Positions 11,224 to 56,890 of a stretch of 64,000 nt of DNA are shown piece by piece (positions within the stretch are counted from its first letter, which is position 1; the number at the start of each line of letters is the position of its first letter). The notes beneath the pieces are model-generated. The model was not told where the DNA came from. It was given only the letters and a program-made list of their open reading frames with translations, and did no database searches. Made by a program: the position numbers and the translations under genes. Source of the DNA: Hoplostethus atlanticus (Eukaryota > Chordata > Actinopteri > Trachichthyiformes > Trachichthyidae); contig JAXDDX010000001.1 of NCBI GenBank assembly GCA_034670405.1, positions 12,633,501-12,697,500 on the forward strand, in the 5' to 3' direction.

Positions 11224-11382
11224 CTAAGCATTGTGGTAACCATTTCCGGGCAAACCTTTCTTGGGTTCTACATTCTCGTAAATAGTGAGTGCAGTGGCGT
11301 TTTGGTAGATTAAATCCACATTGGTTCCAGTTCTTGATCTGATGATGTCCATAGCACACTGGTTTAGGAACACATACTGGTC
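11224..11382 (-). CDS. ptprj: Exon 64: PTP C-terminus, tail and stop
   Basis: [44 protein letters not shown] then TAG. It includes the Q-loop Gln region and a short tail with two Tyr-x-Asn motifs (YENV and YHNA), possible SH2 docking sites of the Grb2 type. TIYEN matches the PTPRJ tail. Confidence 0.92.
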   Translation of the reverse strand, partial: DQYVFLNQCAMDIIRSRTGTNVDLIYQNATALTIYENVEPKKGLPGNGYHNA

Positions 11383-11891
11383 CTGTGGACAGAACAATTA
11401 CATAATTTGGTTGGTAAAATGATACCGTTCATTTTCCACAAACCATTTTTTGTGACAAAAATCCTGTCAGGGCTACACAAAAGTTTTTACAATGCAGGTG
11501 CGTTATATAGGACTGTATATAGGACTGCGGCCTACCTCTGTCTGCACCATGAGGGTCCGGTGCATGCGCAGGTCATGGATGATGCCGTACACATCCACAA
11601 TGCTCTCCCTCTCAATCTGGAAGATCAGACGGTCAATGGCTATGAAGGTACCTGTACGCCCTACGCCAGCACTGTGTGTAAAAAAAGTGGGAGACACAGA
11701 GAGAGATAGAGACAGCAATAGAAACAGGTAGGGAGACGAAGACAGATAGAAAAAATATTGATGAAAGAAAGCAAAAAGCAATGAAAGATTAAGCAATGGT
11801 TAGTTTCATCACTTTGAATTGAGGGCAACAGTGTGTGTTTTCAGTGTAGGGTTATCTCTGGGTAATGCATGTGTATGTGCATGTGTGTGCG

Positions 11892-11926
<35 letters not shown>

Positions 11927-14900
11927 TAGCGGACCTGCAGTGGACCACGGTAGGAGAGTGTCTGGAGTACTGGTCCATGTGCTCTCTGACCAAGTGTCTG
12001 AAGTTGATCAGGAGCTCGGTGGTCTCTGGTACCCCGTGGTCCGGCCAGGCCGTGAAGTGGAAGTGACGCACAGAGCGAGTCTCTGCTGTTTTCACCTGGG
12101 AGACCAAAATGTTAGAGTGTGTACACACAATAATGACCAATAATCATCCGCTGAAATAAAATTCAAACTCGCGCTACCCTGTATATATGTCATGTTGTAT
12201 CTCGTAAGCTTACATTTTTGATGTCAAAGTCCCTGATGGTCCAGTCATCGAGTGGTATTTCAGAGGTGGTCGTCACAGTGATGTTCCCAAAGTGCTTGGT
12301 GTCAGAAGGCCAGTACTGCTCACATTTTACCTGGGAAGGGTGTGTGTGCGCCAGACAAAAGGTGAATCGAGTGTGTGTATGTACGTGCGCTGATGCATGT
12401 TGCCTCTAGGCGTGGTGAGTGCGTCTGCGTTTGTACTTACTCGTCCCTGTTCGTTGCAGCGGGTCAGCATGACCAGAGTCAGTATGTTCTTCTCCCATAT
12501 CATCCTCCAGAACTCGTTGACCGTGCCGGGCAACGGACCCTGGGCCGCAATAAACTCCTTCCTGGAGTTGTAACCCTGGCAAATAAAAATATCATCCCCA
12601 CCCCCCCACACCGCAAAACATAAACATCCATTCTGTTCGGTTTTCCATGCGATTCTCAATTGTTTCATCCATCAACGTGGATGAAGATGGAATACTTCAA
12701 ATGGCGTTAGGTGACTACTTTTTTCCCCCAAACAACTTTAACATGAGAATGAAAAGAATGAGCAGTTAAGAGGAATTAGCTGGCAAATGTAAAATTCCAG
12801 TGATTTAATGACAACAGAGGCTGAAGCAATGACTGAGGCAGAGAGCTGGTTTACAGTGTCAGTACGCACCGGGATGTAGTTAGCATTGATGTAGTCATCA
12901 AATGGACTCCCAAGGATAGAGAGTTTCACCCTAGAAGAGTCATCTAGGGGGTGAGAAATAAGGGGAAATGAATGCTTGATAGAAATGTAAAAAAAAACAA
13001 AAAAAAAACTATGAGGTTAAGAGGTTATTTACACTGCTATGTGTATACAGTGTTATGGCGCTGCTGATGCTCACTGTTGCACAAGAGGTACAATTCATGG
13101 AATTATTGTATTTTAATGCCCTGGATGTTATTGCATTGAATCAAGGTGAATTATAACTTTGATTTCATGGCAGAGCAACAATGTGATTAGGCAGTAGATA
13201 TGACAAGCGATGATGTGGTTTAAGGTGCAGAGGTGGGGTTGTCATGGTGACTCACAAGGAAGCACATTGTTGTAGCGGTTCTTGGGCTTGTTTTCCAAAG
13301 CCTGAGCACTTGTCTTTGCCTGAGCTGTACCAACAGGTTTCAGGTCCTTTACACAGACAGACAGACACACACACACACACACACACACACAGCCATGTTG
13401 GACAACGTAACGTTAAAAAAGAATGATTGGTGATTGAGTGTCTTACATTGTGCCCCAACAACTGGCACATGTAAGGTGCCACAAAAGCCACTCATTAGGC
13501 TTATGCTCTACCTCGAACTCAGAGGCAAAGCCACAGTTGGAGTCTGCTTTCTGCTTCCTGTAGTAGGCCTCATAGTCCTCCACCCTCACAGCTACATTTC
13601 TGCTCAAATGGACACCAGAGGTCAGACAACAATAATGATTTTTCATCCACAACCATTGTCTCTGGTACTTGTTCAGTTCAATCTAGTCCTGTCACATGAC
13701 TCAATAGATCTGATTGTACTATTTGATGTAAGGGATTTATACTCACACTTTGGCTCTGAAAAATAGAGAGAAACCAGAGTGATGTTGACCAGCAGTGATG
13801 GAAATACTTGTTAATTTACTTCATATTTGCATTATGGCAAAGATAAAAACCTTACCTCATGGAATGAATCTGGATGTCTGAAGGTTCTTCCTTTTTCAGC
13901 CTTTGTAAAAAAACAAAACAAATTATATCATCTCTCACTTAATAGTAAAATGTAGGTGTTATTTATGATGATGATGATGATGATGATGATGAATACCTCT
14001 TCCAGTAGATGATGAAGCCGATAACAATGATGAAGAGGACACCAAATATTCCCAATGTTGCTCCGACAGCGATGTTAATTACTATGTTGAGACAGATTAG
14101 GACAGAGAAAAAATAAAGGGGCAAAAAGCATTATGGGGAACGCCAGGTTCTTAACATTGACTAACAAACTAACAAACTGGTTTTGGATGTAGTACCTGGG
14201 TTCGGTGGGAGTGTTATGGCAGTATAGAAGACCGTTGTTGAGACCAGTGATGATACATCCACAAGGCCATTGTGCATATTCAGTTGGGTGAATAACACAA
14301 TTGCATAACTGCAATATCAAACAAAACAACATCAGTCTACTGATTTAAATTTCTTGGTCCAAAATGTCAGTTGTTCATCTTTAATAACTGTCTCTTTCAC
14401 TAAAAACCTTGTAGCAACTGATGATGTAATATCTGCTGGAAAATATAATAACTTAATAACTCAAATGTAATAAAAATGTCTGACTAAATGGGTCAAAAAG
14501 GTAATAATACCTGTTGATGTAATAAAATCCATCACATTATTGCATTATTACATTATTATTACTTCAAAAGGAGTGTACTATTTATAGAGGGACATTTTAT
14601 CACATTTTGACAAGTTCTTACATTATCCGGCAGTGATTACATTATCGGTTATGACACACTTATTGATCCACAATATGTTTTCTGTTCTTACCGATACTGC
14701 TTGTTGGCCGTCAGTTCTCCATTGATATAGCCTTCCCATGTCGTTTTGTCCCCTATATCTACAGTCACATGGTTCCCTCCACTGCGGGACTGGAGGACAT
14801 TGTTTCTGACTGTTGCCAGGTATGCTGGAGTAGTGCCCTCGATCCATTCTTGATAGGTCTTCTGTAAGTACTGTTTGAGATTAGATGGGTCTAAATCTGA

Positions 14901-17900
14901 GGGGGAGTAAATTAGAGGAAGAGTGTCATGTTGCAGTAGTCAGCGGTGTTTGACAGCAAGGTTTTTAACAAGAGTTCATTCTTAAACATCTGTTTATGAG
15001 AAGACCTGAAGCCATCAAGTCAGCATTTATGGATTACGACAGGATTATGATATGATTACGACAGATATTTACTGACAGAGTAAGAAAAGAAAAACCCACC
15101 ATTGTTGTTTGTCACCAGAACCCCAAAATGGGTGATTGGCCCGTTGGTGGCGATCAGCAGATTGGGGTCAATGGTAATAGAGAACATGTTGTACTGCTTC
15201 ATAGACACTCTCACCAGCGACGCATAGTCCGGTGTGATCGGTGGGCCTTCAGAAAAAGAATAGATTATTATAAACAGTTCCATATTGCATAACACAAAAA
15301 TACTATAAATATATATTAAAGACTGTCAAAAACTTGTAAGGAAATGTATTTGATGTGACATCCTACTTGTGATGCCAGTCTCGCAGGTGCGGGATACGGG
15401 AGTGCTGGGTTTTCCACAGCTCTGCGTCTCCACTGTCAGTTTGTAATTTGTATGGTACTTCAGCTCAGAGACGTTGTGAGCACAGTTAGGGTTACAAGGG
15501 TTATTCAAGGTGATCGTGCGGGTCTCGTTGTCGTTTGCTACGGTGACCCGGAAGCCAGAGTTCAGGCCTTTGGGTTTAGTCCAGGACAGGATGACCTCGG
15601 CCTGAGCTCCATTTGGACTATCACACTTAAGGTCAGTCACTGCACTCGCATCTGCAGGGGTAAACAGAAATTAGTCTGTCGCAGGAAGAACTGAACATTG
15701 ATGATACACAGATAAAAAACATGAATCTATAAGCAATAAACAAAAAAAAAACTCCCACAATGTGCCTGTTTTAGCATACACGTATCACACACAGTTGACA
15801 AACAAAAGCCATGAAATTAACATAACATCTTTATATAAAGAATCAAACCTGCTAGGAGCATACTTGTACAACTGGAAATGGATACTGGGGCAGCCTGTGT
15901 TTGGTCCGAGGTCTCTGTGGTCACGGTGAAGGTATACGAGCTGCCGGGAACTAGCCTGCTGATTTTAAACTCATCTTTGTCTGTTATTGCATTGCTGCTG
16001 TTAGGCCCATCTGAGTTAGCCCAGGTCAAATTGTAGCGATAGCTTTGTTTGTAGTCGGCAGGTGTGACCCACTGCAGTGTGATGCTCTCCTCCTCTGTCA
16101 AAGCTTCCAGAGACACCACACTCTTTGGTCCTGATTGGTTAAATAGAGATATACATATTACTACAGTTAAGGTACAAGTGGTAAAAATTGTGTGAGTGTG
16201 TGTATGTTCCTTTTTGCACATAAATAAAACCCTTACTTGTGGTGACCATGTGCCTCCAGACCTCTTTGCTCGTAAAGCCCATGGGCCCCACTGTTGCCAC
16301 CGAGAAGTTGTAGGAAGTTCCAGAAAGCAGGTTGAAAAACGTATGACTGGTGTTGGTGGTGTATTTGGGCCCCTGGGACGCTGCGTTAGTCACTAGGTAT
16401 TGGAATGATGCACTGGCCATCAGAGGAGCTTCCCACTTTATGTGAATGGAGTTGGTTGTCTTCATCAGGATATTGATAGGCCCGGGTGGGTTAGGAACTG
16501 GGGGTGAAATTCCAATAATGTGAACTCAGTTGATTATATGAGGTATACTTTAGTTCCTAAATAAGACACTATTAAAACCCTCAAAATATAACATGTTTAT
16601 CGCACTTACAAGTTGCATTAGTAATAAATTCAGATGGTGCCGTGAAGGGTCCGCTAATTGTGGTCACCATGGCGGTATATTCCCTTCCTGCTAACAGGCC
16701 GACAAACAGGAAGGATGCACTGGTCGAGTTCAGCGTAAGGTTCAGCATAAGGTTACTGCCGTTTAGATATACCACATAATGCTCTACATTCCCAAAAGGA
16801 GCTGTCCACGACACCAGGATTGAATTGTTAGAGCCATCGCTGGAGAGCCTGGGTTGCACCAGCTCGGGTTCTGTTAAAGGAGGAGAAATCCAGGAGAAGA
16901 AAGGAGGACAAAGAGACAAAAACAGGGAGATCAGAGGAAGGCTGGTAGGAGGAGGTGGGGCGGTGAGGCTGGTCAACTACCTTAGATAATACTCAAACTT
17001 GAGAACTTGAAGTAAACAACTAAAGGAGAAGTAAGGGTCTCACTGGTGTACTGCGAAGTGCAATAAGATTCGCCCTCTATGCCGTCCTCTGCCCTGACAA
17101 AAACACAGAACGTGCAGTTGGTTCCAGGTGTGAGCTCGGAGATCTCCGCTTCTTCTTCTGCCGAGGTTTTGTTTTGGGAGGCGCAACCAGTGGTCTCCAC
17201 CCGATAGTTGTAGCCACCCTTGTACTGCAGTGGTCTCGTCCAATTCAGGCGTACAGCAGTCGTGTTCAAGGTGTTAGCCTCCAGCCAGCTGATATTATAC
17301 GGCCCTGCAAACAGAGGAGTGTAAGTTTTGAAAATTAGATTAGTAGATTAGAGACAGTATAATCTTTCATTTTGCATCAAACTATCATGTAAGAAGCACA
17401 ACACTCAGTACACGTTTTAAAGAGATACAGAACTTTGTTTAAAAAAATAGCAATAAAACAAACATGTTTTATATCCTTACATATTGGTATTATTACAGTT
17501 TTTTTCTGAAATGTACAGAAAGCATCACTGACCGGATGGATACTTACGTGTAAAAAAGGACACTGTCACAGGGTTTGCCTTGGTGCCATCTACTGTTTGT
17601 GTGGTGACAGTGAAGGTGTAGTTGCTCCCAGACAGAAGACCAGAGATAGTGAGTGTGGTGTTGAAGACTAATTCAGATGAAAAAAGGGAGCCGTTGGCTG
17701 AGTTAGTGACCACCAAGAATGAGTAGCCAGGTTTGCTTTCTGGCTGATCCCACAGCAAGGTCACTGTATTTGGGGAGATTCCTGCCTGCCTCAGCATGCT
17801 TACATTGAGTGGTCCTAGGAGAAGGAGACAGCCGAGATACAGAAGAGTTACAGCCAAACTACAGGAGATATACAGAAGAGTTACAGCTGAACTACAGGAG

Positions 17901-20900
17901 ATATACAGAAGCGTTACAGCCGAACTACAGGAGATATATAGAAGAGTTACAGCCGAACTACAGGAGATATATAGAAGAGTTACTTGTGCTTGCATGTTTG
18001 TGTGTGTCAGATAGTACAAATAGTGAGTGGGGTTTGCCCCATAGGACAACACTATGAGTGCTAGGGTTAGGGTTAGTGTTAGGTTTAGAAAAGCATTTGG
18101 AAGCTAATCTAGCATACTTTTTTTCCCTACAATCTCTGACCTGCTGCTTTTTGAATTATCCTGATGCAGGAAAAGCCACCTATCTGGTTCTTAAAGCAGG
18201 TCGAAATAAAGACTTAATATTCCTATCAGAATGTATAGTATTTGACTCAGGTCTTTGGTTTATGTGGGTGTCTCTCAGGATATGTTAGTCACACTCACTG
18301 GTATAGTTTTCTGTCGTCACCCCTGTGCTTCGGTAGCCAAGTACGCCTACAGTAACAACAGAGATGTTATAGGGCGTTCCAGACTGGAGGTTGTCCAGCA
18401 GGATCCAGTTGTTTCTCATCAGGTACTCCTGGTTCAGACTGAACACTGTGAAGTTGTACTGATTAAGCTCCATGTCCTCTGGTAAGGCCCAGCTGATGTT
18501 GATGGAGTGAGTGGTCTGGGACTCCACGATGATGAGGCCAGGAGGGTTGGGAACTGAGCAGGAGAAGGAACTGAGTTAAATTGGCGCTCAATTCAAACAT
18601 GTCAGGAAGTTGTTGGGATTTATTTTCTTAAATCTGCGTCAAAACACATGGAGTACATATGCACAGGTGTACGCATCGCAGCGTAACAATGTTTAAATAT
18701 CAGCGATGTGACTCACAAGTTGCGTTGAAAGCAATTGAACTGCCAAAGTGAGGCCCACTCTTGGTGATCACCATGATATTGTACAGCGTTCCTGGTTTCA
18801 GGCCCTGAAACAACACGTTTAAGGTAGTGTTGCTGAGTCCGGTGTGGTTTCCCTCCAACAGGCTGCCTCTATACAGCAGGACAGAGTAAGATTCCACCTG
18901 CCCAGTCGGTGCTGTCCAGCTCACTGACATGGTTGTGGTGGTTCCTATGGCATCTATGCCAGGCACATTCTCAGGCCCTGGAAAAACAGATTTCAACAAA
19001 ATTAAAACAAAAAGCCTTAACTCTAGCGCTGACTGATGTAATGCATATAAGGTAACTTGTAGAAATGTACTGCATATGAATTGTTCGTCCAAGTGAACAT
19101 ATATTTCATAAAAAAAAAAAACTCTGGAAGCTTTGGAGACGCACTTGTGTAGCTTGATGTGCATTCCACATTGGACTTGACCCCTCCTACAACCGTAAGC
19201 ACGCAGAAAGTGTGGATTTCCCCAGGAGTCAGATTGACGAAGGTGTAAGTCTCTGTCTCTGTTGAAACATTGTGAACCACCTCTGTGCCCTCGCGTACAG
19301 TCACCAGGTAGGAGTAGCTGGGCTTATAATCACTCTGTCTGGCCCACGTCAACCGGACGGCAGTGGTGTTCAGATCCTCAGTGGTTAGGTTGGTCACTGC
19401 TTTGGGCACTGCAGAGAAAACAGCAGAAGGCTATGTAAGACCAAAGACCAACATGGAAATAGGTCTTTTTGTGTTGATCATTTTGAGATGATTTTAAAGA
19501 TCGTCCAATAAACTGAACTAAACTAAACAATAATTATTTTGTTGTCAGTATCTAGGAAACACAGAGCTTATTAATATGATAATAGATTTGATAGAGGTGA
19601 GAAACTGCAGAACTTATCAAGACCTCAGCATAATGTGATGTAATGTAATGTGTGCCCTTGAGTATAAGGACTTACTTGTGTAACTGAACGCCTGCTCCAT
19701 AGTGGAGTAACTTCCTGGTGCTGCTACCGTGGTGACAGTAAAATTGTATCTAGTTCCTGGTTCCAGAACAGTTACAACAGTGCTGTTAGTGCTGACTGTT
19801 GCTGGGTTAACATGTGCTCCTTCGGTGTTGCTGGTTTCAATCCTGTACGTGTAATACGCCTGGGCTCCCAGCGGGTCTGACCATTCTACTTTAACTGAGG
19901 TGGTGGACTCAGGGCCCGCTATGACATTCAACACAGGGTTGGGCACTAAAAATTGGGAAAGGGGAGGAAATGTTAGTAACTTATTAAGAAGGCATTCCTG
20001 TTTATATAGAAAGATTGCTAATGTTTGCTACTGCGCTGTATGCTTAGGCTCTGGCCAATTAGTGAGTAGTTGAGTCCATAAGGAATCTCAGATGTTTGGT
20101 TACTACTAAAATCACAAAATGGTTTAATCTGTCCAAGGAGTATAGGATAAATAAAACGACAACACTTTTATGTCCGTATATTTCTACATGTTTTACTCAC
20201 ATGTGTAAGTAGAATTCTGGATGCCGATGCTCCTTAAATTCTGAGGTCCCACTGTTTCCACAGTTATATTGTAGGATGTTCCAGAAGAGAGCAAGGATAG
20301 CACTGTGTTATTGGCTGTGGTGCTTTTACTTTGTAGTCCGTGCCCTTCATGGTGGTAGGTTATTTGGTAGCTGATGTTTGGGGCACCCTCCATGAAGACA
20401 GGAGTTCCCCACTCCAGACTGAGGGAGGAATTGGTCCGCTGGTTTATAATGATGGCATCAGGAGGAGTGGGATCTGAGATGTACGAGTAATGGATTAAAA
20501 AAGTGTATGTCAGACCACATACACACACACACACCACAGAATACTCTGCAGTATACTAAGAAACCAGCAAACACAACTTAAAGGGGCCCTATTATAGGAA
20601 TTCAAATTTTCTTGCAGTCATGTGCATATATGATCTTCACACACACATACACACACCAGTTTGTGCCATTTGAATTAAAGCTGGTGTTGTCGGCCAATCA
20701 GGGTCTAGTACTGGATCTCTTCTGCCCGTGAAGACTTAATTCAAATGAATTCAATAAATATGCTTTTAACTAAATGACATTTATTTGGAAAAGATCACAG
20801 AGAACATTATTCTTGTCCTGATCCACAGTATACCTGAAAACAAAATGTTTAAAAAAATAAAAGTGAACAATATAAAACCTTTAACTTACCAGTGGCCAAT

Positions 20901-23900
20901 GAGGACTGATCAGATGTGTTACTGAAATGTCCAGCTACAGCAGTCACTGTGATCACATAGATTCTCCCAGGATTTAAAGCACTAAAGCTGGCTGTGGTGA
21001 CCTCTGATGTATTGCTAGACTGAAACATCAGTTCCTCATTTGAGATGTTCACCACATAGTGATCGACTTTCCCCCTAGGCAAGGTCCAATTCATGGTCAG
21101 CTTATTAGTTCCTCTTGCTGTAACCTGAATGTTCCCAGGCTTCTCAGGCCCTATACAATGCACAAGTAAAAGGTATTTGTTTGTTTTTTTGTTATGACAT
21201 TATGGAAAAAGATGATATCCATTGACAACGTGTGACATTTTGAGATGGCACACTTGAGCACAAAGTGTAAAAAGTGATAAATATATAATAAACTAGACAT
21301 ACTGTATCCATTACCCAGACACATAAACTGAAAGAGGATTATCTCAAAGTATGGACTTACTTATGAAAGGGGTTACTAGGGTCCTGACTCCTTCATTTGA
21401 GCTATATCCAGCAACAGCAGCGACTGTGATGTTGTACTGGAATCCAGCGAGTAACTCAGTGATGGTAATGGAGGTTTCATTAGTAGTATTATTATCAGCG
21501 TCTCCTCCTGAAGTCCACTGAACTGTGTACGAGGTGGCATTGCCCTCTGGTTCAGTCCAGCTCAGAGACACTGACGACGTTGTGACTTCAGTGATAGTGA
21601 GATTCCTAACCACAGCAGGTTCTGTGAATGCAGGACGGACCAGAGGAAAAAAAAAAACATGAAATTTAGAGCCTAATAACAGCCTAATAACCGACTGACG
21701 ACATCTTCCAAAACAAAACCTATAATAACTTCAGGTTCTGTGGGAAAAAAGAGGTGAAAGAAATAAAGCATTGCCTTTTCCAAAACTGCTTATATAGACC
21801 AGATGTGTGAAGACAATATGAGAGGAGTCTCCTTTTAAATGGATTGTAGCATCAGTGAAGTGGGATATATTCTCAGAGTAAAATCTTAGACACTAACTCA
21901 TGACATGACTGCTTCTACAAACAAGGCCTTTAATGCTGCCATCTCCAGCACTGCAGTGACTGGTGACAAATTGGTACCAAACACCAGCAAGAAGATTTGC
22001 TATATCAAAGGTGGTTTTGTTGGTTTCTCATAAAGATTATTTCTATCAGTCCATTATACTATGTAAAAGGCACTATTGCCAACAGGTTTAGTCCAGTTGA
22101 GAGACAGAGGATGTTGTGATTCAAGAGAAAGTGAAGTTCCTGATGATTTCAGGATCTGTGCATGCAAAAGAGGGGCAGGCAACAACAACAAGGGCAGAAA
22201 ACAAAACACGATGAAGAACAACAGATGCTTTCTGCAAGTGGTTTTATGAACAATAAAAATGTTGTCAAAGTAGTGTGCATCATCTTACTTGTATAGAGTA
22301 AAATCTCAGCCTTTTTGCTTTCTGTTTTGTTATCTCCAGCTACTGCAATGACAGTGAATGTGTACTGCACTCCAGCAGTCAGCTCAGTGATATTCAGATA
22401 TGTTGTTTTCACACTGTGACTCCCATTGGCTCTTCCATCAGTCCACTCTACTCTATAGAAGGACCTGTTTCCCTCTGGTTCAGTCCAGCTCAGCAAAACA
22501 GAGGATGTTGTGATTCCAGTGAAAGTGAGATTCCTGACTACTTCAGGCTCTGTGAGTGCAAAACAGTGGAAAGTAGAAGACGAAAGGTCACAGCAAACCT
22601 TAATTTGTCTATGAACAACTACACATATAAATAAAACGACATAGTAAAACCTTAGAATAGAAAACATAGTAGCTATACAGATCGTCTTGCTAAGATTAAC
22701 TACTGTGGCAACAAACAGTGTCTAATGCAACGTGGGAACTACTGTACATCTTACTTGTATAGAGTGAAATTCTGTTCCCCTGTCCTAGAGTTTCATTGTC
22801 TCCAGCCACTGCAATGACAGTGAATGTGTACTGCACTCCAGCAGTCAGCTCAGTGATATTCATATATGTTGTTTTCACACTGTGACTCCCATTGGCCCTT
22901 CCATCAGTCCACTCTACTCTATAGAAGGAACTGTTTCCCTCTGGTTCAGTCCAGCTCAGAGACACTGACGACGTTGTGATTTCAGTAACATTGAGACTCC
23001 CGACCACAGCAGGTTCTGTGAGTGCAGGACGGACACAAGACCAGGGGAAATAAATAACATGAAACTTATGGCTGTCAAAGAACATAATGGCTGACTAATG
23101 GACACCTGTCACTGAAAAACTACAATAACCTCAGGTTTTGTAGTAAAAAACAATGGAAGGTTGTTGCCATCTCCAGCACTGCAGTGACTGCAAATTGGTA
23201 CCAAACACCAGCAGGAAGATTTGCTATATCAAAGGTGGTTTTGTTGGTTTCTCATAAAGATTATTTCTATCAGTCCATTATACTATGTAAAAGGCACTAT
23301 TGCCAACAGGTTTAGTCCAGTTCAGAGACAGAGGATATTGTGATTCAAGAGAAAGTGAAGTTCCTGATGATTTCAGGATCTGTGCATGCAAAAGAGGGGC
23401 AGGCAACAACAACAAGGGCAGAAAACAAAACATGATGAAGAACAACAGATGCTTTCTGCAAGTGGTTTTATGAACAATAAAAATGTTGTCAAAGTAGTGT
23501 GCATCATCTTACTTGTATATAGTAAAATCTCAGCCTTTTTGCTTTCTGTTTTGTTATCTCCAGCTACTGCAATGACAGTGAATGTGTACTGCACTCCAGC
23601 AGTCAGCTCAGTGATATTCAAATATGTTGATTTCACACTGTGACTCCCATTGGCTCTTCCATCAGTCCACTCTACTCTATAGAAGGACCTGTTTCCCTCT
23701 GGTTCAGTCCAGCTCAGCAAAACAGAGGATGTTGTGATTCCAGTGAAAGTGAGATTCCTGACTACTTCAGGCTCTGTGAGTGCAAAACAGTGGAAAGTAG
23801 AAGACGAAAGGTCACAGCAAACCTTAATTTGTCTATGAACAACTACACATATAAATAAAACGACATAGTAAAACCGTAGAATAGAAAAGATAGTAGCTAT

Positions 23901-44307: not shown

Positions 44308-47300
44308 ATATTCATATTTTAGGTTCTCATGGGTTCAGTTTAGCACAATATTACCACCTTTCTATACAGTATAATCTTCAGCTTCTTTGAAATCTGGGGC
44401 TTATTGACACTGATAGTGTTCAGGTGTCAAGCTTGTAGTACAAAGCATAATCAAACCAGTCTTTTGAACCTTTGACTATAAAAGGGTTGTTGTATTAATA
44501 TATAATATACTATACAAATACATTCCAGGGAATAACAGCACTTACTAGTTGTGATCTCTTTGCAGCAGTTAAGAAAACTGAGAAAGACTTGATGGGTAGC
44601 CCCAGGAGTCAGTCCAGATATTAATGGGCCTTCGTAGGATTGGTTGCCAATGATAAAGGTGCGGTTTATCAGAGATGTGAAGTTGATTGTTGTTGTTCCT
44701 ATTGTTGTTTTAATGTTCCCACAATTACCACCTAAGAAGAAGAAGAAGAAATAGAAATGTGTGGTGGCACAAATAGACTAGAAAGTCAAAACTTCAAAAC
44801 TTTCCAACACATCAGTTGTTAAGCTTAAATTAAATACAACATGATCTATGAGAATGTATAACACTCACATAAAATAAATACAATCTAATACAAATCTAGC
44901 ACAATCAAAAAATCATTACTTACCATCACATTCTGCTTGAGAGTTCTATAATGAGGAAAGAGAAAAGAAAAGTGAATCAGTTTATACCAGTAGAGGTCAG
45001 CATTGAGTTAAAGACCTCCTCAAACCACCAACCAGAGACCTAACCACCTGTTCACTGCTACAGGGCGAGAATGAATTGATGCTTGATGGTTGATGGAGTA
45101 AACACAAATGAATTATTAATTAAACTGATGAAGGAGAACTACTCTGTTCAAAGTCTTGAATAAGTTAAGTCTCCCTCAAATTCTTGAAACACGTAGGTGA
45201 GATGTGTCCCTTCCTGTAGAACTACATGAGACATTTATGTCCTAAAGCAAGATGCCTTTGTCCAGCCTGACTAGCCTGTTCCAAAGCAGCACTGTGCTGA
45301 GCAGCCTTGCTCTCTCTTTCTCTCCATGGTAATCAACAAAAATCCCCCAGTACTGCTGGTGCCAGAGTGCAATAATCGCGACTGTAACTGTTATGAGAAA
45401 GTCGGCATCCCATATCAGCCATACCACAGGCTCAGCCTTATGAGCTAAACTCTGGCCCAGACAGATAATTGAAAATGTATTTCATCAAGACACCTTTCCC
45501 CTGGTGTCACAGTCAGAGGGTGTACATATGTGTGTACGTCCCTATTAGCTATTGGAAAGATCATGTTTGTGAGCCTGTTAGTACAAACAAGGAAGTGGAT
45601 CCTGGTTATACATGTCCAGTGTCTGGTAGTCACTGTGGGTCCTGAGATAATATTACATTTGGGAAATCAATGTGGAAAATTGTTTCCCCTCTAATCCCAA
45701 ACAGGGAAATGGATTCCAACGCCACAATCCTATCGCCACAAAGCACTGTGGTTATTCACCAGTTTCCTGGTACTGGCGAGGCATATAACTCGTTCCACCT
45801 TAATGATTAGTCAAAGCTAAACAGTCCATAGCCACGCACTGCAGGCCTTGCCTTACAGTCTGTTTACCAGATAGCTAAATATTAAACCCATGGCATCACC
45901 GGTCTAATCTCCATTCTCTTCGATCACTCCCCCACAAAGACCCAGATATCATTCATTAACTACACTTAACATTAACAGAGTACATACGGGTCATGGTCTG
46001 TTTTAGGTAATGCACATCATTACAGTACCTCAGGGTGTCCTTTAAAATAGAATAGAATAGAATAGAATAGAATAGACCTTCCAGACCAGGGACCCAAACA
46101 GTAGTCTTCAGTGGAAAGAATGGTCCATTCTGGACGTAATGTTGCCACTTCCCCCTACCCTTCCCCGGAGACCCCGCTCCTGTCCTCAACCTTTCCTATT
46201 CTATTCATAACAGCAGCCCTGCCCTTCCTCCCAACCCTCTGGTACCCTATTCTTTCTGAAGGCCAAGGGTACCACACAGTTGAAGGGTTGAAGGGTTCAG
46301 AGCTCTTTGATGTCCTTGTGGGGCAGACCCCATTGTACCAGTATGGCTTGTATTTGATTGGATTGGTTATATATAATATATAATGATGTAAAAATATAAA
46401 AAAAAGTTGTTTTAAGCTCATTACAAATCCAAAACATAGATTTTTAAATGGCTTTTTGCTTCACACATTGTTCTAGGAATCACATTTTGTTCCCAAGGAA
46501 CTTTATTTATTGAATACAAAAGTCATATGACCTTTTCAGAGTCAGTATTTAACTACCGAAACAAAAGGCTGCTGTACCACCCAACAACCAAGCATTAGAC
46601 TACAGATTACATCAAAATGCCAGGTGGTATGAACTGAACATGTTGCACTGAGTGGATTTTGTGAACTGGGGGAACAAGTTGTCTACTTTGAGGAACTATA
46701 TGAGGAACTATGATATGTTTTAACCATTGCTGCCTAACTTCATTTGAATGAAGAGGCAGCAAAGATACAATGCCTATTTCTGTACTGGTGTTTTGCATGT
46801 TTCATCAGCTGCTTAGTACAGTGCTTTTACTACTAGTGGGTGTGTTGGGTGGGACATTTTCTACAAGAGGAAAAGTGAGAGAACTAGCAACTTGTGAAGT
46901 CAGCACATCTCTGCTAAATACTTTGACGATACATAAAGTTTTGGAAGTAGTGGTTAGTGTGATCCAGTGGCCAAAATCGACACTATCCTAGCCTTTTATA
47001 TTTGAAATAGAACATTACAGTGTACTTAAAATAGATCAGCTGTAAAGCTACCCGTCGTCTCCATCCATGAAAACATTTGTGCACTTAATAATAAGTAATT
47101 GCTCCTTTCTAGACCTCTTCCCACTACATCAAAATATGAGGAACAGCAGTATGGGAAGCCTGCATGTCAACACCATGACAACCTCACGTTTTGATCCAAA
47201 TATTGATGTTTAATTGACCTCTGGAGATGTGACTTTGCTGAGCCATGATTCCCTAATGTTTTTTATTTTCTTGGCCCACTTCCTCAGTATCGTTTATTTT

Positions 47301-51199: not shown

Positions 51200-51255
<56 letters not shown>

Positions 51256-53216: not shown

Positions 53217-53278
<62 letters not shown>

Positions 53279-56200: not shown

Positions 56201-56890
56201 TAGGCCTAATAAATTGAAAATTGATCTGTAAAATTACAAATAGTTAGTTCAGGTAGTTTAAAGTAGTATTGGCTCTCTAGTAGGTCCAATGAAGTGGCTT
56301 TCCATTTCCATAGAAAGAAGCCAAACATTTTGCTCTCACATCGTTAGCCATAATATATTCTCTCCGCGTATTCCAATAAATAGCTCACCATTGTTAAATC
56401 TCTCCAACTTGAAGGTCAGCATATTAATTACTTGCTGACATAAATTTGAATCCAATTAAAATTCTCAAAGGACCATTATTCATCCTACAGTAAGCCATGA
56501 CATTCTCCATCTGCCAAAATCAGTCACCAAAACTCTTTAGCTGACACCAATTTAGAATGGCTTTTTTTTTTTTTAAAACGTTGCTACTTTTCTCAAACTT
56601 TTCCCTTAAACCACCCGGATCATGACCGACTGCTGACTAGAGGGAATCACGACTCAGAGGAGGACAGTTACCTGCGCAACAGGTGCAGTCTCACCCCCGT
56701 TGGTCGAAACTGACCTTTATCATCCAAACAACACGCGCCTTTGTCTTTTAGTCCATGAGAAAATACCAACACCTGCGTTCAACGTTTATTCTCCGCAAAA
56801 TGGAAATGAATGAGAGTCCCTTACCTTGAGGAAAGCGTAAAAGACCAGGAGGGTCCTGAGTAAAACAATGAGGCGCAGCAGTCGCTTCAT
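11224..56890 (-). CDS. ptprj: PTPRJ-like receptor tyrosine phosphatase, 64 coding exons, 47 FN3 domains
   Basis: Type I membrane receptor of the R3 class that removes phosphate from tyrosines on signalling proteins at the plasma membrane. Order: signal peptide, short N-terminal segment, 47 FN3 exons, juxtamembrane region, one transmembrane helix, one PTP domain. All 64 exons join in frame (sum 14,147 nt, one nucleotide short because of exon 34), giving about 4,715 residues. The catalytic signature [15 protein letters not shown] loop and KNRYNN substrate loop are intact. [17 protein letters not shown] before the PTP domain and the tail LTIYENV are closest, from memory, to PTPRJ; PTPRH is the main alternative. 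Mammalian PTPRJ has only about eight or nine FN3 domains, so the ectodomain is greatly enlarged. Only one signal-peptide exon and one TM/PTP set exist on this strand, which argues for one gene. This span entry includes introns; the exons are listed separately. Confidence 0.85.
11536..11671 (-). CDS. ptprj: Exon 63: PTP signature loop
   Basis: [41 protein letters not shown]. It completes [10 protein letters not shown], including the phosphate-binding Arg. 136 nt. Confidence 0.93.
11894..11924. repeat. (TG)n next to the exon 62 donor
   Basis: About 15 TG units (CA on the gene strand) beginning some 11 bases into the intron after exon 62. Confidence 0.95.
11935..12095 (-). CDS. ptprj: Exon 62: PTP domain, WPD loop and catalytic cysteine
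   Basis: [43 protein letters not shown]. It carries the general-acid Asp of WPDHG and the nucleophilic Cys. The exon breaks inside the Ser after HC, as in other receptor PTP genes. The donor is GTCCGC, a weak form, with a (CA)n run close behind in the intron. Confidence 0.92.
12214..12330 (-). CDS. ptprj: Exon 61: PTP domain
   Basis: [45 protein letters not shown] is the usual family motif. 39 codons. Confidence 0.92.
12441..12575 (-). CDS. ptprj: Exon 60: PTP domain core
   Basis: [42 protein letters not shown]. Contains the conserved AAQGP and FWRM-x-WE motifs. 45 codons, phase 0-0. Confidence 0.92.
12870..12943 (-). CDS. ptprj: Exon 59: PTP domain, DDYINANY motif
   Basis: [20 protein letters not shown] then ANYIP, a standard PTP motif. 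Donor GTGCGT. Confidence 0.9.
13256..13346 (-). CDS. ptprj: Exon 58: PTP domain, substrate-recognition loop
   Basis: [20 protein letters not shown] then [10 protein letters not shown]. The KNRYNNVLP loop positions the phosphotyrosine ring. Donor GTGAGT. Confidence 0.9.
13365..13391. repeat. (CA)n in the intron before exon 58
   Basis: About 13 CA units, 19 bases upstream (gene sense) of the exon 58 acceptor. Confidence 0.95.
13512..13599 (-). CDS. ptprj: Exon 57: N-terminal helix of the PTP domain
   Basis: [20 protein letters not shown] then NCGFASEFE. The ADSNCGFA-x-E-[FY]-E phrase is the strongest pointer to PTPRJ in the R3 group. Donor GTAGAG, phase 0. Confidence 0.88.
13747..13755 (-). 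CDS. ptprj: Exon 56: 9-nt microexon
   Basis: Nine bases (AGCCAAAGT) between a TTTTTCAG acceptor and a GTGAGT donor, adding AKV-type residues between exons 55 and 57. Both neighbours are in the matching phase 2, so it can be included or skipped in frame. Human PTPRJ has a short basic segment (KPKKSK) at the same place. Confidence 0.65.
13856..13900 (-). CDS. ptprj: Exon 55: cytoplasmic juxtamembrane
   Basis: Fifteen codons: [15 protein letters not shown]. Charged linker just inside the membrane. Donor GTAAGG. Confidence 0.82.
13965..13992. repeat. (GAT)n at the exon 54 donor
   Basis: About nine ATG/GAT units directly behind the donor of the transmembrane exon, so length variation could affect splicing. 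Confidence 0.95.
13997..14081 (-). CDS. ptprj: Exon 54: transmembrane helix
   Basis: Codes for [20 protein letters not shown] then GFIIYWKR: about 24 hydrophobic residues followed by basic stop-transfer residues. It has a GTATTC donor, with a (TCA)n run starting five bases into the intron. Confidence 0.9.
14196..14308 (-). CDS. ptprj: Exon 53: juxtamembrane extracellular region, part 3
   Basis: [33 protein letters not shown], ending just before the membrane. 113 nt, phase 2 to phase 1. The donor is GTACTA. Confidence 0.8.
14692..14896 (-). CDS. ptprj: Exon 52: juxtamembrane extracellular region, part 2
   Basis: [52 protein letters not shown]. 205 nt taking phase 1 to phase 2. [13 protein letters not shown] matches the YNGPL-x-x-x-x-YR style of the R3 membrane-proximal domain. 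Confidence 0.85.
15100..15246 (-). CDS. ptprj: Exon 51: juxtamembrane extracellular region, part 1
   Basis: Forty-nine codons: [45 protein letters not shown]. The [10 protein letters not shown] phrase resembles the membrane-proximal region of R3 phosphatases. Donor GTGGGT. Confidence 0.82.
15367..15651 (-). CDS. ptprj: Exon 50: last FN3 domain, cysteine-rich
   Basis: [67 protein letters not shown]. 95 codons and several cysteines, unlike the array domains. Donor GTAGGA. Confidence 0.85.
15864..16130 (-). CDS. ptprj: Exon 49: FN3 domain
   Basis: [58 protein letters not shown]. 89 codons. Donor GTATGC. Confidence 0.87.
16237..16497 (-). CDS. ptprj: Exon 48: FN3 domain
   Basis: [59 protein letters not shown]. 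87 codons. Pairs in sequence style with exon 44 (both start FPNPPG). Confidence 0.88.
16610..16870 (-). CDS. ptprj: Exon 47: FN3 domain
   Basis: [59 protein letters not shown]. 87 codons. Confidence 0.88.
17044..17304 (-). CDS. ptprj: Exon 46: FN3 domain
   Basis: [59 protein letters not shown]. 87 codons, with an unusual pair of cysteines in the F strand region. Confidence 0.88.
17548..17814 (-). CDS. ptprj: Exon 45: FN3 domain
   Basis: [61 protein letters not shown]. 89 codons. The intron upstream holds a 33-bp minisatellite. Confidence 0.88.
17836..17983. repeat. 33-bp minisatellite in the intron before exon 45
   Basis: About four and a half copies of a 33-bp unit (agttacagccgaactacagg + agatatayagaag). 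Because 33 is a multiple of three, it gives a misleading open frame with an 11-residue repeat. Confidence 0.85.
18060..18088. repeat. Short telomere-like run
   Basis: Contains three imperfect copies of ttaggg-like sequence (agggttagggttagtgttag). Too short to indicate a former chromosome end. Confidence 0.4.
18299..18553 (-). CDS. ptprj: Exon 44: FN3 domain
   Basis: [60 protein letters not shown]. 85 codons, the shortest FN3 exon. Confidence 0.88.
18717..18977 (-). CDS. ptprj: Exon 43: FN3 domain
   Basis: [59 protein letters not shown]. 87 codons, donor GTGAGT. Confidence 0.88.
19145..19408 (-). CDS. ptprj: Exon 42: FN3 domain
   Basis: [59 protein letters not shown]. 88 codons. The donor reads GTGCGT, weaker than its neighbours. 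Confidence 0.85.
19676..19945 (-). CDS. ptprj: Exon 41: FN3 domain
   Basis: [61 protein letters not shown]. 90 codons. Confidence 0.88.
20201..20473 (-). CDS. ptprj: Exon 40: FN3 domain
   Basis: [57 protein letters not shown]. 91 codons, donor GTGAGT. Confidence 0.88.
20890..21150 (-). CDS. ptprj: Exon 39: FN3 domain
   Basis: [53 protein letters not shown]. 87 codons, acceptor TATAG, donor GTAAG. Diverged from the array. Confidence 0.88.
21361..21621 (-). CDS. ptprj: Exon 38: FN3, diverged 3' flank of the array
   Basis: [58 protein letters not shown], ending VTPFI. Related to the array exons but clearly older. Seven sequons by eye. Confidence 0.88.
21870..22155 (-). pseudogene. Dead FN3 exon, type C long form, most diverged copy
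   Basis: Outermost C copy, between exons 37 and 38, with more substitutions and small indels than the others. Perhaps nearest to the founder of this dead exon. Confidence 0.65.
22289..22549 (-). CDS. ptprj: Exon 37: FN3, type A, last array member
   Basis: [33 protein letters not shown]. The only type A exon with KTTYLN. 3' edge of the homogenised array. Confidence 0.85.
22755..23015 (-). CDS. ptprj: Exon 36: FN3, type B
   Basis: [42 protein letters not shown]. 3'-most B copy. Confidence 0.85.
23160..23379 (-). pseudogene. Dead FN3 exon, type C short form
   Basis: Short-form C copy between exons 35 and 36. Same internal deletion as 26246-26464 and 28868-29085. Confidence 0.7.
23513..23773 (-). 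CDS. ptprj: Exon 35: FN3, type A
   Basis: [33 protein letters not shown], with a silent CTA at the last Leu (as in exons 12 and 22). Confidence 0.85.
23979..24238 (-). CDS. ptprj: Exon 34: FN3, A/B chimera with 1-nt deletion
   Basis: The only 260-nt member. It starts as type A ([26 protein letters not shown]) and ends as type B (NETLGQG), then loses one C of the usual four-C run at about 24001-24003, giving GTEFHSIQ instead of GNRISLYT. Inclusion would shift the rest of the protein out of frame. Because exon phases are 1-1, skipping it restores the frame. It may be a real lesion, or a sequencing or assembly error. Confidence 0.75.
24443..24703 (-). CDS. ptprj: Exon 33: FN3, type B
   Basis: [42 protein letters not shown]. 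Confidence 0.85.
24967..25240 (-). pseudogene. Dead FN3 exon, type C long form
   Basis: Long-form copy with the [20 protein letters not shown] reading at the 3' end, shared with 27587-27860. Stops interrupt the acceptor-linked frame. Confidence 0.7.
25374..25634 (-). CDS. ptprj: Exon 32: FN3, type A
   Basis: [34 protein letters not shown] (Glu in place of Lys in the NKT sequon). Confidence 0.85.
25840..26100 (-). CDS. ptprj: Exon 31: FN3, type B
   Basis: [41 protein letters not shown] (Gly for the usual Glu), [10 protein letters not shown]. Confidence 0.85.
26246..26464 (-). pseudogene. Dead FN3 exon, type C short form
   Basis: In one reading the stretch [20 protein letters not shown] survives, but the acceptor-linked frame stops after about 11 codons and the 3' third is deleted. 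Confidence 0.7.
26598..26858 (-). CDS. ptprj: Exon 30: FN3, type A
   Basis: [39 protein letters not shown]. Its 5' two thirds match exon 34 (2,620-bp shift region), while its 3' end is type A. Confidence 0.85.
27063..27323 (-). CDS. ptprj: Exon 29: FN3, type B
   Basis: [42 protein letters not shown] (His shared only with exon 33, its 2,620-bp partner). Confidence 0.85.
27587..27860 (-). pseudogene. Dead FN3 exon, type C long form
   Basis: Near-identical to the copy at 24967-25240 (2,620-bp shift). FN3-like [11 protein letters not shown] start followed by a stop, then out-of-frame FN3 sequence. Confidence 0.7.
27994..28254 (-). CDS. ptprj: Exon 28: FN3, type A
   Basis: [12 protein letters not shown] (Thr for Ser), [27 protein letters not shown] (Asp for Glu). 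Corresponds to exon 32, 2,620 bp away. Confidence 0.85.
28460..28720 (-). CDS. ptprj: Exon 27: FN3, type B
   Basis: [42 protein letters not shown]. Corresponds to exon 31, 2,620 bp away. Confidence 0.85.
28868..29085 (-). pseudogene. Dead FN3 exon, type C short form
   Basis: Same start as the long form but the 3' third is deleted (junction at the TAVLEMAA region near 28870). Aligns with the copy at 26246-26464 (2,621-bp shift). Confidence 0.7.
29219..29479 (-). CDS. ptprj: Exon 26: FN3, type A, one sequon lost
   Basis: [39 protein letters not shown]. The usual RANGS is RAYWS, so the central glycosylation site is gone. Unique in the array. Confidence 0.85.
29684..29944 (-). CDS. ptprj: Exon 25: FN3, type B
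   Basis: [42 protein letters not shown]. Joins the D block to the A-C-B part of the array. Confidence 0.85.
30270..30527 (-). CDS. ptprj: Exon 24: FN3, type D, 3'-most D copy
   Basis: Eighty-six codons: [46 protein letters not shown]. Same protein reading as exons 9 and 18. Confidence 0.85.
30540..30579 (-). pseudogene. FN3 exon-start remnant upstream of exon 24
   Basis: About 35 bp matching an acceptor and the first codons of an A/B' exon (SEVVRNLTS reading) fused to the type D intron. Same junction recurs at 33960-33999 and 38767-38806. It marks the recombination scar that created the D block. Confidence 0.55.
30781..31041 (-). CDS. ptprj: Exon 23: FN3, type B
   Basis: [42 protein letters not shown] (Phe where others have Ile), GNRISLYT. 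Confidence 0.85.
31300..31578 (-). pseudogene. Dead FN3 exon, type C long form
   Basis: Copy of the C dead exon. It shares with the copy at 36570-36851 the variant [20 protein letters not shown] reading, and so belongs to the same duplicated block. Stops and frame breaks as in the other copies. Confidence 0.7.
31712..31972 (-). CDS. ptprj: Exon 22: FN3, type A
   Basis: [26 protein letters not shown] (RDNGS in place of RANGS), [13 protein letters not shown]. Block partner of exon 12 (5,273-bp shift). Confidence 0.85.
32177..32437 (-). CDS. ptprj: Exon 21: FN3, type B'
   Basis: As exon 20 but ends GNRIPLYT. 462 bp spacing. Confidence 0.85.
32639..32899 (-). CDS. ptprj: Exon 20: FN3, type B'
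   Basis: [32 protein letters not shown]. 465 bp from exon 19. Confidence 0.85.
33104..33364 (-). CDS. ptprj: Exon 19: FN3, type B
   Basis: [40 protein letters not shown]. Aligns with exons 10 and 25 in the shared block. Confidence 0.85.
33690..33947 (-). CDS. ptprj: Exon 18: FN3, type D
   Basis: Eighty-six codons, same protein reading as exons 9 and 24. The intron upstream holds a short FN3 acceptor remnant (33960-33999). Confidence 0.85.
34201..34461 (-). CDS. ptprj: Exon 17: FN3, type B'
   Basis: Repeats exon 15 at 927 bp but ends ISLYT, so it differs at the Pro/Ser site. Its 3' flank leads into the type D block. Confidence 0.85.
34663..34923 (-). CDS. ptprj: Exon 16: FN3, type B'
   Basis: Repeats exon 14 at a distance of 927 bp, down to the ISLYT ending and the flanking intron. 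Confidence 0.85.
35128..35388 (-). CDS. ptprj: Exon 15: FN3, type B'
   Basis: Same as exon 14 except a GNRIPLYT end. 462 bp downstream of it. Confidence 0.85.
35590..35850 (-). CDS. ptprj: Exon 14: FN3, type B'
   Basis: [41 protein letters not shown]. First of four consecutive B' exons (14-17). Confidence 0.85.
36055..36315 (-). CDS. ptprj: Exon 13: FN3, type B
   Basis: [32 protein letters not shown], ending GNRIPLYT (proline where most have serine). Block partner of exon 23 (5,274-bp shift). Confidence 0.85.
36570..36851 (-). pseudogene. Dead FN3 exon, type C long form
   Basis: Begins at the acceptor edge with [11 protein letters not shown] then a stop, continues out of frame through [13 protein letters not shown]-like and [16 protein letters not shown]-like sequence, and has no usable donor. 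The FN3 skeleton is recognisable but split by stops and frameshifts. Confidence 0.7.
36985..37245 (-). CDS. ptprj: Exon 12: FN3, type A
   Basis: [46 protein letters not shown]. The QNTNTTYMN centre is shared only with exons 22, 30 and 34. Followed by a long-form type C dead exon. Confidence 0.85.
37446..37706 (-). CDS. ptprj: Exon 11: FN3, type B'
   Basis: [45 protein letters not shown]. 465 bp from exon 10, the usual spacing in the compact B' part of the array. Confidence 0.85.
37911..38171 (-). CDS. ptprj: Exon 10: FN3, type B
   Basis: [49 protein letters not shown]. Five sequons. First exon of the B-D block shared with exons 19 and 25. Confidence 0.85.
38497..38754 (-). CDS. ptprj: Exon 9: FN3, type D
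   Basis: Eighty-six codons. The protein and the following intron reading are the same as exons 18 and 24, indicating recent block duplication (4,807 and 8,227 bp shifts). Confidence 0.85.
39008..39268 (-). CDS. ptprj: Exon 8: FN3, type B'
   Basis: [45 protein letters not shown]. Six sequons. Its flanks match exons 17 and 23 in the D-containing block. Confidence 0.85.
39470..39730 (-). CDS. ptprj: Exon 7: FN3, type B with hybrid centre
   Basis: Starts like B ([20 protein letters not shown]) but carries [14 protein letters not shown] in the centre, a mix of B (RANGS) and B' (NVNTT). Ends [14 protein letters not shown]. Six sequons. Confidence 0.85.
40056..40313 (-). CDS. ptprj: Exon 6: FN3, type D
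   Basis: FN3 of 86 codons: [64 protein letters not shown]. Four sequons. It is the only D copy with a T instead of C at the ALNV codon context and an ACG instead of ACA in the TTTTY run, so it is the most diverged D copy and lies outermost. Confidence 0.85.
40331..40346 (-). pseudogene. Dead FN3 exon (type C), remainder 3' of the L2 insertion
   Basis: Sixteen bases matching the middle of the type C dead exon, ending in the ttca target duplication. It abuts the exon 6 acceptor intron directly, so the rest of the dead exon was lost by a separate deletion. Confidence 0.6.
40347..43046 (-). mobile_element. L2-clade LINE, internally deleted and frame-broken
   Basis: A non-LTR retrotransposon of about 2.7 kb on the minus strand. 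The 5' part (about 42985-41977) encodes an apurinic endonuclease with [21 protein letters not shown] and LSDHYF motifs, split over three frames. After the linker (about 41977-41740) the sequence jumps to the second half of reverse transcriptase (41701-40763) with [17 protein letters not shown] and the catalytic YADDTQL near 41515. The N-terminal RT palm and finger region is missing, so the copy cannot move. The 3' UTR ends in the teleost L2 tail (gcatttggcagacgctttta on the plus strand) and a short ATTAC tandem tail, without poly(A). A 4-bp target duplication (ttca) flanks it at 40343-40346 and 43047-43050. Confidence 0.85.
40763..41701 (-). CDS. L2 LINE reverse transcriptase, C-terminal part
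   Basis: Open frame of 312 codons inside the LINE, starting after the deletion junction. It begins [20 protein letters not shown], then carries RT motifs GVPQGS and [21 protein letters not shown] and the thumb/connection sequence ending APQWWN. This is the conserved C-terminal RT region of L2/CR1-group elements. The first ATG is internal to the original protein, so this is a fragment of a dead transposon gene and not a host gene. Confidence 0.85.
   Translation of the reverse strand: MHQPHLTGRSYQVTLRGSVSEPRRLTIGVPQGSVLGPLLFSLYTTSLGSVIHSHDLSYHCYADDTQLILSFPPSNTQVEAHIAACLADISEWMSMHHLKLNLDKTELVFLPGKGCPPRDLAITINNAVVTSTWTARNLGVTLDDQLLFSANITSVTRSCRFLLYNIRRIRPFLTDETAQVLIQALVISRLDYCNSLLAGAPASAIRPLELVQKAAAHLVFNRPKFSHTTTLLCSLHWLPVAARIQFKTLVLAYRAVKGTAPSYLQAMIKPYTPARPLCSAASRRRVAPSLRGPCGRSTQSQLFSVLAPQWWN
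43047..43105 (-). pseudogene. Dead FN3 exon (type C), 5' part, cut by the L2 LINE
   Basis: First about 59 bp of the type C dead exon (acceptor side, [11 protein letters not shown] then a stop). The rest lies at 40331-40346 beyond the LINE. Intact neighbouring C copies read straight through this point, which identifies the empty site. Confidence 0.75.
43239..43499 (-). CDS. ptprj: Exon 5: FN3, type A, first array member
   Basis: FN3 of 87 codons: [47 protein letters not shown]. Five N-glycosylation sequons. It differs from other type A copies in SVSLSW (others SVLLSW) and SNKAE (others SKKAE). The L2 insertion lies in the intron that follows. Confidence 0.85.
43707..43841 (-). pseudogene. Truncated FN3 exon remnant with internal deletion
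   Basis: The lower part (43707-43760) matches the 3' end of a B-type array exon with its donor. At about 43760 it breaks into unrelated sequence. At about 43818-43841 a run matching the first codons (KPEVAR) and acceptor side of an FN3 exon reappears. The middle of the exon is missing and the remaining frame meets stops, so this is a dead exon. Confidence 0.7.
43984..44244 (-). CDS. ptprj: Exon 4: FN3 domain, diverged 5' flank of the array
   Basis: FN3 of 87 codons: [43 protein letters not shown]. Clearly a relative of the array exons but diverged (for example [15 protein letters not shown] in the C'-E region and a [14 protein letters not shown] end). It marks the 5' boundary of the homogenised array. 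Confidence 0.85.
44269..44306. repeat. (GA)n upstream of exon 4
   Basis: Nineteen GA units (CT on the gene strand) about 25 bases before the exon 4 acceptor. It lengthens the polypyrimidine tract. Confidence 0.95.
44546..44731 (-). CDS. ptprj: Exon 3: N-terminal extracellular segment, FN3-like
   Basis: Sixty-two codons beginning [10 protein letters not shown] and ending CCKEITT. It contains NFT, NRT and NQS glycosylation sequons and the phrase [19 protein letters not shown], which resembles the E-F strands of an FN3 fold. It looks like a shortened or degenerate FN3 domain with four cysteines. Acceptor CTTAG, donor GTAAG, phase 1 at both ends. Confidence 0.65.
44924..44945 (-). CDS. ptprj: Exon 2: 22-nt linker exon
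   Basis: A very short exon coding for NSQAECD and the first base of a glycine codon. It has a TTATAG acceptor and a GTAAGT donor, and it converts phase 0 to phase 1, the phase used by every FN3 exon that follows. Its small size makes it easy for gene finders to miss. Confidence 0.65.
46046..46075. repeat. (AATAG)n pentanucleotide repeat
   Basis: Six perfect five-base units in intron 1. Confidence 0.95.
48223..48253. repeat. (GT)n microsatellite
   Basis: About 15 perfect units in intron 1. Confidence 0.95.
51206..51248. repeat. (CA)n microsatellite
   Basis: About 21 units, preceded by a short CG-rich run (cgaacgcgcgc) that could adopt alternating purine-pyrimidine structure. Confidence 0.95.
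53221..53281. repeat. (GA)n microsatellite
   Basis: About 30 units with one interruption (gcga). Confidence 0.95.
56825..56890 (-). CDS. ptprj: Exon 1: start codon and signal peptide
   Basis: Codes for [20 protein letters not shown] followed by LK: basic n-region, then a hydrophobic core, a typical secretory signal. The start is the first ATG of the frame, and the exon ends in phase 0 at an AAG/GTAAGG donor. It is separated from exon 2 by an intron of about 11.9 kb. The flanking sequence upstream is locally GC-richer. Confidence 0.75.

Follow-up and report, generated by a model that had tools for sequence, protein, structure and literature searches.

A PTPRJ gene with 47 FN3 exons, 33 of them in a near-identical array, in Hoplostethus atlanticus

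Introduction

Does the fish Hoplostethus atlanticus possess a receptor tyrosine phosphatase with an ectodomain far longer than those of its relatives, and how could such a gene have arisen? We analyzed a stretch of 64,000 nucleotides (the window; contig JAXDDX010000001.1, positions 12,633,501 to 12,697,500), whose minus strand carries a gene for which this had been suggested by the original prediction. Judged from its sequence, this gene is PTPRJ (DEP-1/CD148) with 47 FN3 exons. The five human R3 phosphatases possess 7–18 FN3 domains according to Table 1 of PMC10815196. The FN3 exon count is thus well above that of these relatives, and the predicted stalk would reach several times the length of its counterpart in humans.

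Exon model and reading frame

From this analysis, we obtained a gene model extending from an ATG at 56890 to a stop codon at 11224 and ending in an intact PTP domain, all as originally predicted. An HMM trained on 16 FN3 exons of the window gave 59 matches along the minus strand, 47 of them full-length, with 76.6–102.5 bits, between 44244 and 15367. In an independent check, the translations of all 47 exons matched Pfam fn3 (20 of 20 and 27 of 27; E up to 0.001), which rules out chance or mis-called exons. AG/GT borders were found in all 47, and 46 have lengths that are multiples of three and phase 1-1 joins, the exception being FN3 exon 31 with its deletion. Hence, the predicted number of 47 FN3 exons stands for the assembled sequence, but they are not strictly consecutive, as eight degenerate FN3 exons and an insertion matching reverse transcriptase interrupt the series.

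Table 1 Features of the PTPRJ gene in the window, from its start codon to its stop codon
Feature	Coordinates	Strand	Basis or remark
Exon 1	56825..56890	-	Start ATG, hydrophobic leader; donor score 7.4
Exon 2	44924..44945	-	Candidate 22-nt microexon, phase 0 in, 1 out; splice scores, phase
Exon 3	44546..44731	-	Short N-terminal exon; FN3-like in part, by eye only
FN3 exon 1	43984..44244	-	Diverged; 57% mean identity to array exons
FN3 exons 2-34 (array, n=33)	22289..43499	-	HMM, AG/GT, identity
FN3 exons 2-9	43499-43239, 40313-40056, 39730-39470, 39268-39008, 38754-38497, 38171-37911, 37706-37446, 37245-36985	-	
FN3 exons 10-17	36315-36055, 35850-35590, 35388-35128, 34923-34663, 34461-34201, 33947-33690, 33364-33104, 32899-32639	-	
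FN3 exons 18-25	32437-32177, 31972-31712, 31041-30781, 30527-30270, 29944-29684, 29479-29219, 28720-28460, 28254-27994	-	
FN3 exons 26-34	27323-27063, 26858-26598, 26100-25840, 25634-25374, 24703-24443, 24238-23979, 23773-23513, 23015-22755, 22549-22289	-	
FN3 exon 31	23979..24238	-	260 nt, 1-base deletion, splice sites intact; exon comparison
Ninth degenerate FN3 fragment	43130-43047	-	
Broken LINE-like element	40763..42991	-	Intron between FN3 exons 2 and 3 (first array intron)
Degenerate FN3 exons (n=8)	21934..36876	-	BLAST
Degenerate FN3 exons, first bases	36851, 31578, 29085, 27860, 26464, 25240, 23379, 22155	-	
FN3 exons 35-47 (diverged, n=13)	15367..21621	-	HMM match, AG/GT
FN3 exons 35-41	21621-21361, 21150-20890, 20473-20201, 19945-19676, 19408-19145, 18977-18717, 18553-18299	-	
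FN3 exons 42-47	17814-17548, 17304-17044, 16870-16610, 16497-16237, 16130-15864, 15651-15367	-	
Large juxtamembrane domain (three exons)	14196..15246 (15246-15100, 14896-14692, 14308-14196)	-	Intron phases 1:1:2:1
Transmembrane exon	13997..14081	-	Splice scores weak (-1.1, -1.0)
Cytoplasmic juxtamembrane and PTP-domain exons (n=9)	11224..13900	-	Motifs WPD, HCSAGVGR, YEN
Cytoplasmic exons	13900-13856, 13599-13512, 13346-13256, 12943-12870, 12575-12441, 12330-12214, 12095-11935, 11671-11536, 11382-11224 (stop)	-	

The leader encoded by exon 1 is a candidate signal peptide, as judged from hydrophobicity only. The exon lies in a CpG-rich stretch, as at a promoter, with an observed/expected ratio of 0.84–0.91 at 57100-56501 compared with 0.33 in the whole window. 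The chain from the ATG exon across an 11.9-kb intron to exon 2 is tentative and built on splice scores and phase only; exon 2 reached the highest sum of acceptor and donor scores (14.6) among eight phase-compatible candidates. Exon 3 gave no match to Pfam.

Between 15246 and 11224, the tail consists of 13 exons: three encode the juxtamembrane domain, one the transmembrane segment and nine the cytoplasmic part. They were chosen to preserve the frame, some of them with weak splice scores. An ectodomain exon near 14432 was dropped in favor of 14308-14196, which fits the phases on both sides. The FN3 nature of the juxtamembrane domain, which had no Pfam match here, is taken from the family. One of the introns separating diverged FN3 exons contains a 33-bp minisatellite (4.5 copies, 94% matches; window positions 17834-17983).

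The full model comprises 63 exons with 14,138 nt, a sum not divisible by three, and FN3 exon 31 breaks its frame; the 64 exons joining in frame that had been predicted were therefore not recovered. The lesion is a GGG in place of the GGGG in the sister exon starting at 32437. If exon 31 is left out, the remaining 62 exons (13,878 nt) form a single open frame of 4,625 amino acids without any frame error. The predicted product of ~507 kDa before glycans has 46 exon-encoded FN3 domains and the juxtamembrane one, and Kyte-Doolittle values above 1.6 were reached only in the leader and in one transmembrane stretch. If exon 31 is kept, the first stop follows after 2,787 residues, upstream of the transmembrane exon. 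Because this frameshifted exon possesses usable splice sites, an intact giant protein requires either that it is skipped or that the missing base is an assembly error.

Inclusion of exon 31 would make this a damaged allele, whose FN3 ectodomain would be truncated or soluble, or whose mRNA would decay. The position of the resulting stop before the transmembrane exon is consistent with this, and a soluble splice form of PTPRJ is described for human (PMC5354644; PMC10815196). We consider a damaged allele improbable, however, since the PTP exons further downstream are intact and the lesion is private to one of the 33 array copies.

Assignment to PTPRJ

Among PDB chains, the PTP domain scored highest against PTPRJ, with 492 bits for 3i36, 468 bits for 2nz6 and 467 bits for the human 2cfv. 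The entry 3i36 is labeled Vascular protein tyrosine phosphatase 1, which we take to be rat PTPRJ. The scores for the other R3 members (PTPRB 349, PTPRH 300, PTPRO 283, PTPRQ 258 bits) rule out an identity as PTPRH, PTPRB, PTPRO or PTPRQ, and the values for PTPRS (462 bits) and LAR (459 bits) are sums of two domain matches (244 + 216 in PTPRS). The domain is identical to human PTPRJ at 195 of 290 positions (67.2%), and its catalytic motifs are intact, with WPD at residue 4491 and HCSAGVGR (HCX5R), followed by the C-terminal YEN (YxN) at 4608. Therefore, the receptor tyrosine phosphatase of the original prediction can be specified as PTPRJ-type. Within its own genome (632.8 Mb, 1161 contigs), PTP exons with at least 84% identity were found in the window only; the next locus, on contig C44, reached 65% at best.

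The gene shows the R3 architecture of an FN3 ectodomain, one transmembrane segment and a single PTP domain (one Y_phosphatase match in Pfam), together with the R3 motifs, namely the C-terminal YxN and a canonical WPD loop. According to PMC5336234, R3 phosphatases have single-exon FN3 domains with phase-1 borders and juxtamembrane domain introns in the phases 1:1:2:1, which agrees with the 46 of 47 FN3 exons in phase 1-1 and with the juxtamembrane exons observed here. Shared with mammalian PTPRJ are the single PTP domain, the tyrosine-containing C-terminal tail (LIYQN.TA.TIYEN), the one-exon FN3 domains, the phase-1 introns and the large juxtamembrane domain. In contrast to the 8–9 FN3 domains listed for human PTPRJ (PMC10815196, Table 1), the gene described here has 47 FN3 exons in addition to the juxtamembrane domain, and 33 of these exons are near-identical. 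The number of FN3 domains varies within R3 and is not taken as defining for PTPRJ.

Structure and origin of the array

The 47 FN3 exons divide into the 33 of the array and 14 diverged ones with a mean identity of 24% among themselves. The diverged exons nearest to the array by mean identity are those bordering it, FN3 exons 1 (57%) and 35 (50%). Within the array, we distinguished the types A (11 exons), B' (8), B (9) and C (4) as well as one chimera, the copies being near-identical within each type. Type C is only ~40% identical to A and B at the protein level. The repeats are nested, with tandem monomers of 461–465 nt and duplicated blocks of up to 3,489 bp at 98.1% identity. The chimera is exon 31, in which the first 217 nt are identical to the B exon starting at 26858 and the end corresponds to an A/B' exon, with an A/B' intron following. 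Because of the nested repeats and the chimeric exon 31, the origin of the array appears best explained by unequal crossing-over.

Just upstream of the C exon at 38754, window positions 38802-38755 comprise the truncated start of a B-type exon, which has an acceptor of its own. The same truncated starts precede the C exons at 33947 and 30527, hence three of the four C exons, always in frame. Use of this alternative acceptor could add 16 residues to the respective C exons.

The FN3 frame of each of the eight degenerate exons is interrupted by a stop at codon 11, and these exons were apparently amplified together with the array. Their acceptors score 3.1–4.8, and no donor above -0.1 was found in the expected range 150–330 nt further on. 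Because they retain these acceptors, these dead exons too must be skipped. The LINE-like element matched RVT_1 at 2.9e-14, with two further endonuclease matches below the Pfam cut-off. The locus thus displays exon duplication in several states at once, with copies that are live, dead or, in one case, chimeric.

Near-identical repeats are difficult to assemble, and part of the array might stem from false duplication or from a repeat that was collapsed and then expanded during assembly. The lesion in exon 31 is a homopolymer-length change, which is a common long-read error, and exact internal repeats extend to 981 bp. This maximum is well below long-read length, however; only 20 of the 528 array exon pairs are identical, and the longest duplicated block contains 60 mismatches; the window is free of N, the contig is 19.5 Mb long, and the 62 remaining exons show no frame error. 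A second copy of the array or of the PTP end, or a second haplotype copy, was not found in the genome searches. Because the copies differ, the contig is long and no second genome copy was found, an assembly artefact is unlikely, and we regard a partly artefactual array as very improbable.

At least 35 of 37 array-exon matches in the genome lay inside the window and the other two were 43% and 52% identical, all counts being lower bounds owing to a loose initial search. With only these two matches listed elsewhere, a dispersed repeat with FN3-like ORFs was rejected. A search at the DNA level hit the window only, but it missed most of the known array copies and adds little.

Constraint on the array exons

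In the B' exons, 1 of 261 columns was variable compared with 17 of 185 in the intron that follows (p=2e-6), and in the A exons 9 of 261 compared with 21 of 185 (p=0.002). For this contrast, we used only the A and B' sets; the pooled A/B copies and the C exons were excluded, as their flanks are non-homologous. Two other contrasts, A-B-P (p=3e-6) and B-P (p=0.0008), owe part of their strength to one alignment end. The dead exons were as uniform as the live ones, with 5 of 155 versus 22 of 522 variable columns in five units and 7 of 155 versus 20 of 261 in eight segments. Low exon divergence is therefore not clear proof of selection. Based on few changes, pN/pS was 0.32 for type C, 0.53 for type B and 1.11 for A and B' together. 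Taken as a whole, these comparisons argue weakly to moderately for constraint on the array exons.

Two further explanations of the array bear on these results. It could represent a neutral, satellite-like amplification tolerated by the gene, its length drifting without consequence. The pN/pS of 1.11 in the largest exon class, in which A and B' are mixed, would fit such a process, as would the broken exon 31 and the dead exons co-amplified with the live ones and equally uniform. Frames remained open in 32 of the 33 copies, however, and the exon-intron contrast in the B' exons is strong, so that we consider neutral amplification rather doubtful.

Alternatively, the array might be genomic but mostly spliced out, leaving a working protein of ordinary size with 13–14 diverged FN3 domains. 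Skipping would be frame-neutral, given that the array exons are symmetric (phase 1-1), and the frameshifted exon and the eight dead ones point in the same direction. On the other hand, in 32 of the 33 array exons the frame is open and neither splice site is lost. The array acceptors score 3.3–9.7 (median 3.3) and the donors 3.8–5.3, comparable to the values for the diverged exons (acceptors 0.0–9.3, median 5.2; donors 0.8–6.7), and the live A and B' exons are less variable than their introns. We therefore regard predominant splicing-out of the array as unlikely.

Predicted product and function

We consider it probable that the array arose in place in PTPRJ by unequal crossing-over and gives rise to a long-stalk phosphatase, exon 31 being skipped or mis-assembled. 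According to this model, repeated rounds of unequal crossing-over at the locus would have multiplied FN3 exons together with their introns, and the resulting 33-exon array lies next to 14 FN3 exons of older origin. With phase-1 introns on both sides, copies of the FN3 exons could be gained, lost or skipped without disturbing the frame. We infer that the array is transcribed and that the stalk length probably differs between alleles and transcripts. The likeliest product would be a receptor phosphatase with a predicted stalk of up to ~47 FN3 domains, heavily N-glycosylated; the ectodomain without the leader contains 219 N-glycosylation sequons compared with 74 (s.d. 7) in 200 shuffles. Its cytoplasmic PTP domain would dephosphorylate tyrosine-phosphorylated receptors, as in PTPRJ/CD148.

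In a leading model of receptor triggering, CD45 and CD148 are excluded from close contacts according to their size. The predicted long stalk would likewise exclude the enzyme from narrow cell-cell contacts, with far more reach, and from work on CD148 it is reasonable to expect that stalk length would affect signaling via contact exclusion. With FN3 domains of ~3.5 nm in length, a stalk of 47 domains would measure about 165 nm; to our knowledge, it would be the longest known ectodomain of a receptor tyrosine phosphatase. The longest form of CD45 reaches ~40 nm if treated as a rod (PMC6170634). Because a freely rotating rod has a height below its length, as noted in the same source, the actual height of the predicted stalk may be much below 165 nm. 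The ectodomain of CD148, described as large and rigid, is reported to keep this protein out of close contacts, and the AlphaFold model of CD148 has an extended shape (PMC10815196).

More tentatively, we suggest that the array might behave as a tandem repeat with coding content, each unit combining an exon with an intron, and with a copy number that varies between individuals and transcripts. The stalk would then range from ~15 to nearly 50 FN3 domains (~50 to 165 nm), and the range of contact exclusion would be heritable and tunable. As a natural long-stalk PTPRJ with an otherwise standard enzyme, the protein would test whether length alone sets exclusion, and how far.

Comparison with other R3 phosphatases

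Among the matches listed, mainly from the open-access literature, we found no earlier report of a comparable FN3 stalk in PTPRJ. The longest human R3 phosphatases, PTPRB (17 FN3 domains) and PTPRQ (18 FN3 domains), share the FN3 stalk, the single membrane pass and one PTP domain with the gene described here, but their FN3 count is well under half and their PTP match clearly weaker. Moreover, PTPRQ has WPE according to PMC5336234, whereas we found WPD.

Expansion of domain repeats through internal duplication is already known (PMC1553488) and in itself not new; the same genome holds a small version of it. In a PTPRH/PTPRB-like gene on contig C44, six FN3 stretches are 84–99% alike (C44:3373993-3379488), hence also form a small FN3 array. 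For this gene, which served as the in-genome yardstick, a search of 70 kb yielded eight FN3-like stretches in the orientation of the gene. Its PTP domain is 58.6% identical (143/244) to that of the PTPRJ gene, and the nearest R3 PDB chains are PTPRB (322 bits), PTPRH (308 bits) and PTPRJ (299 bits). Two other R3-like regions, on contigs C212 and C348, served as further yardsticks; counted along the strand of the gene, they gave 16 and 18 FN3-like stretches, respectively, of which many are partial, and C348 includes 17,500 N. On contig C1, two equal-scoring FN3 stretches lie 65 kb apart (8152967-8153218 and 8218383-8218634), with PTP matches at 8229892-8231389, possibly reflecting a duplication, either segmental or introduced by the assembly, in the vicinity of a further R3-like phosphatase gene.
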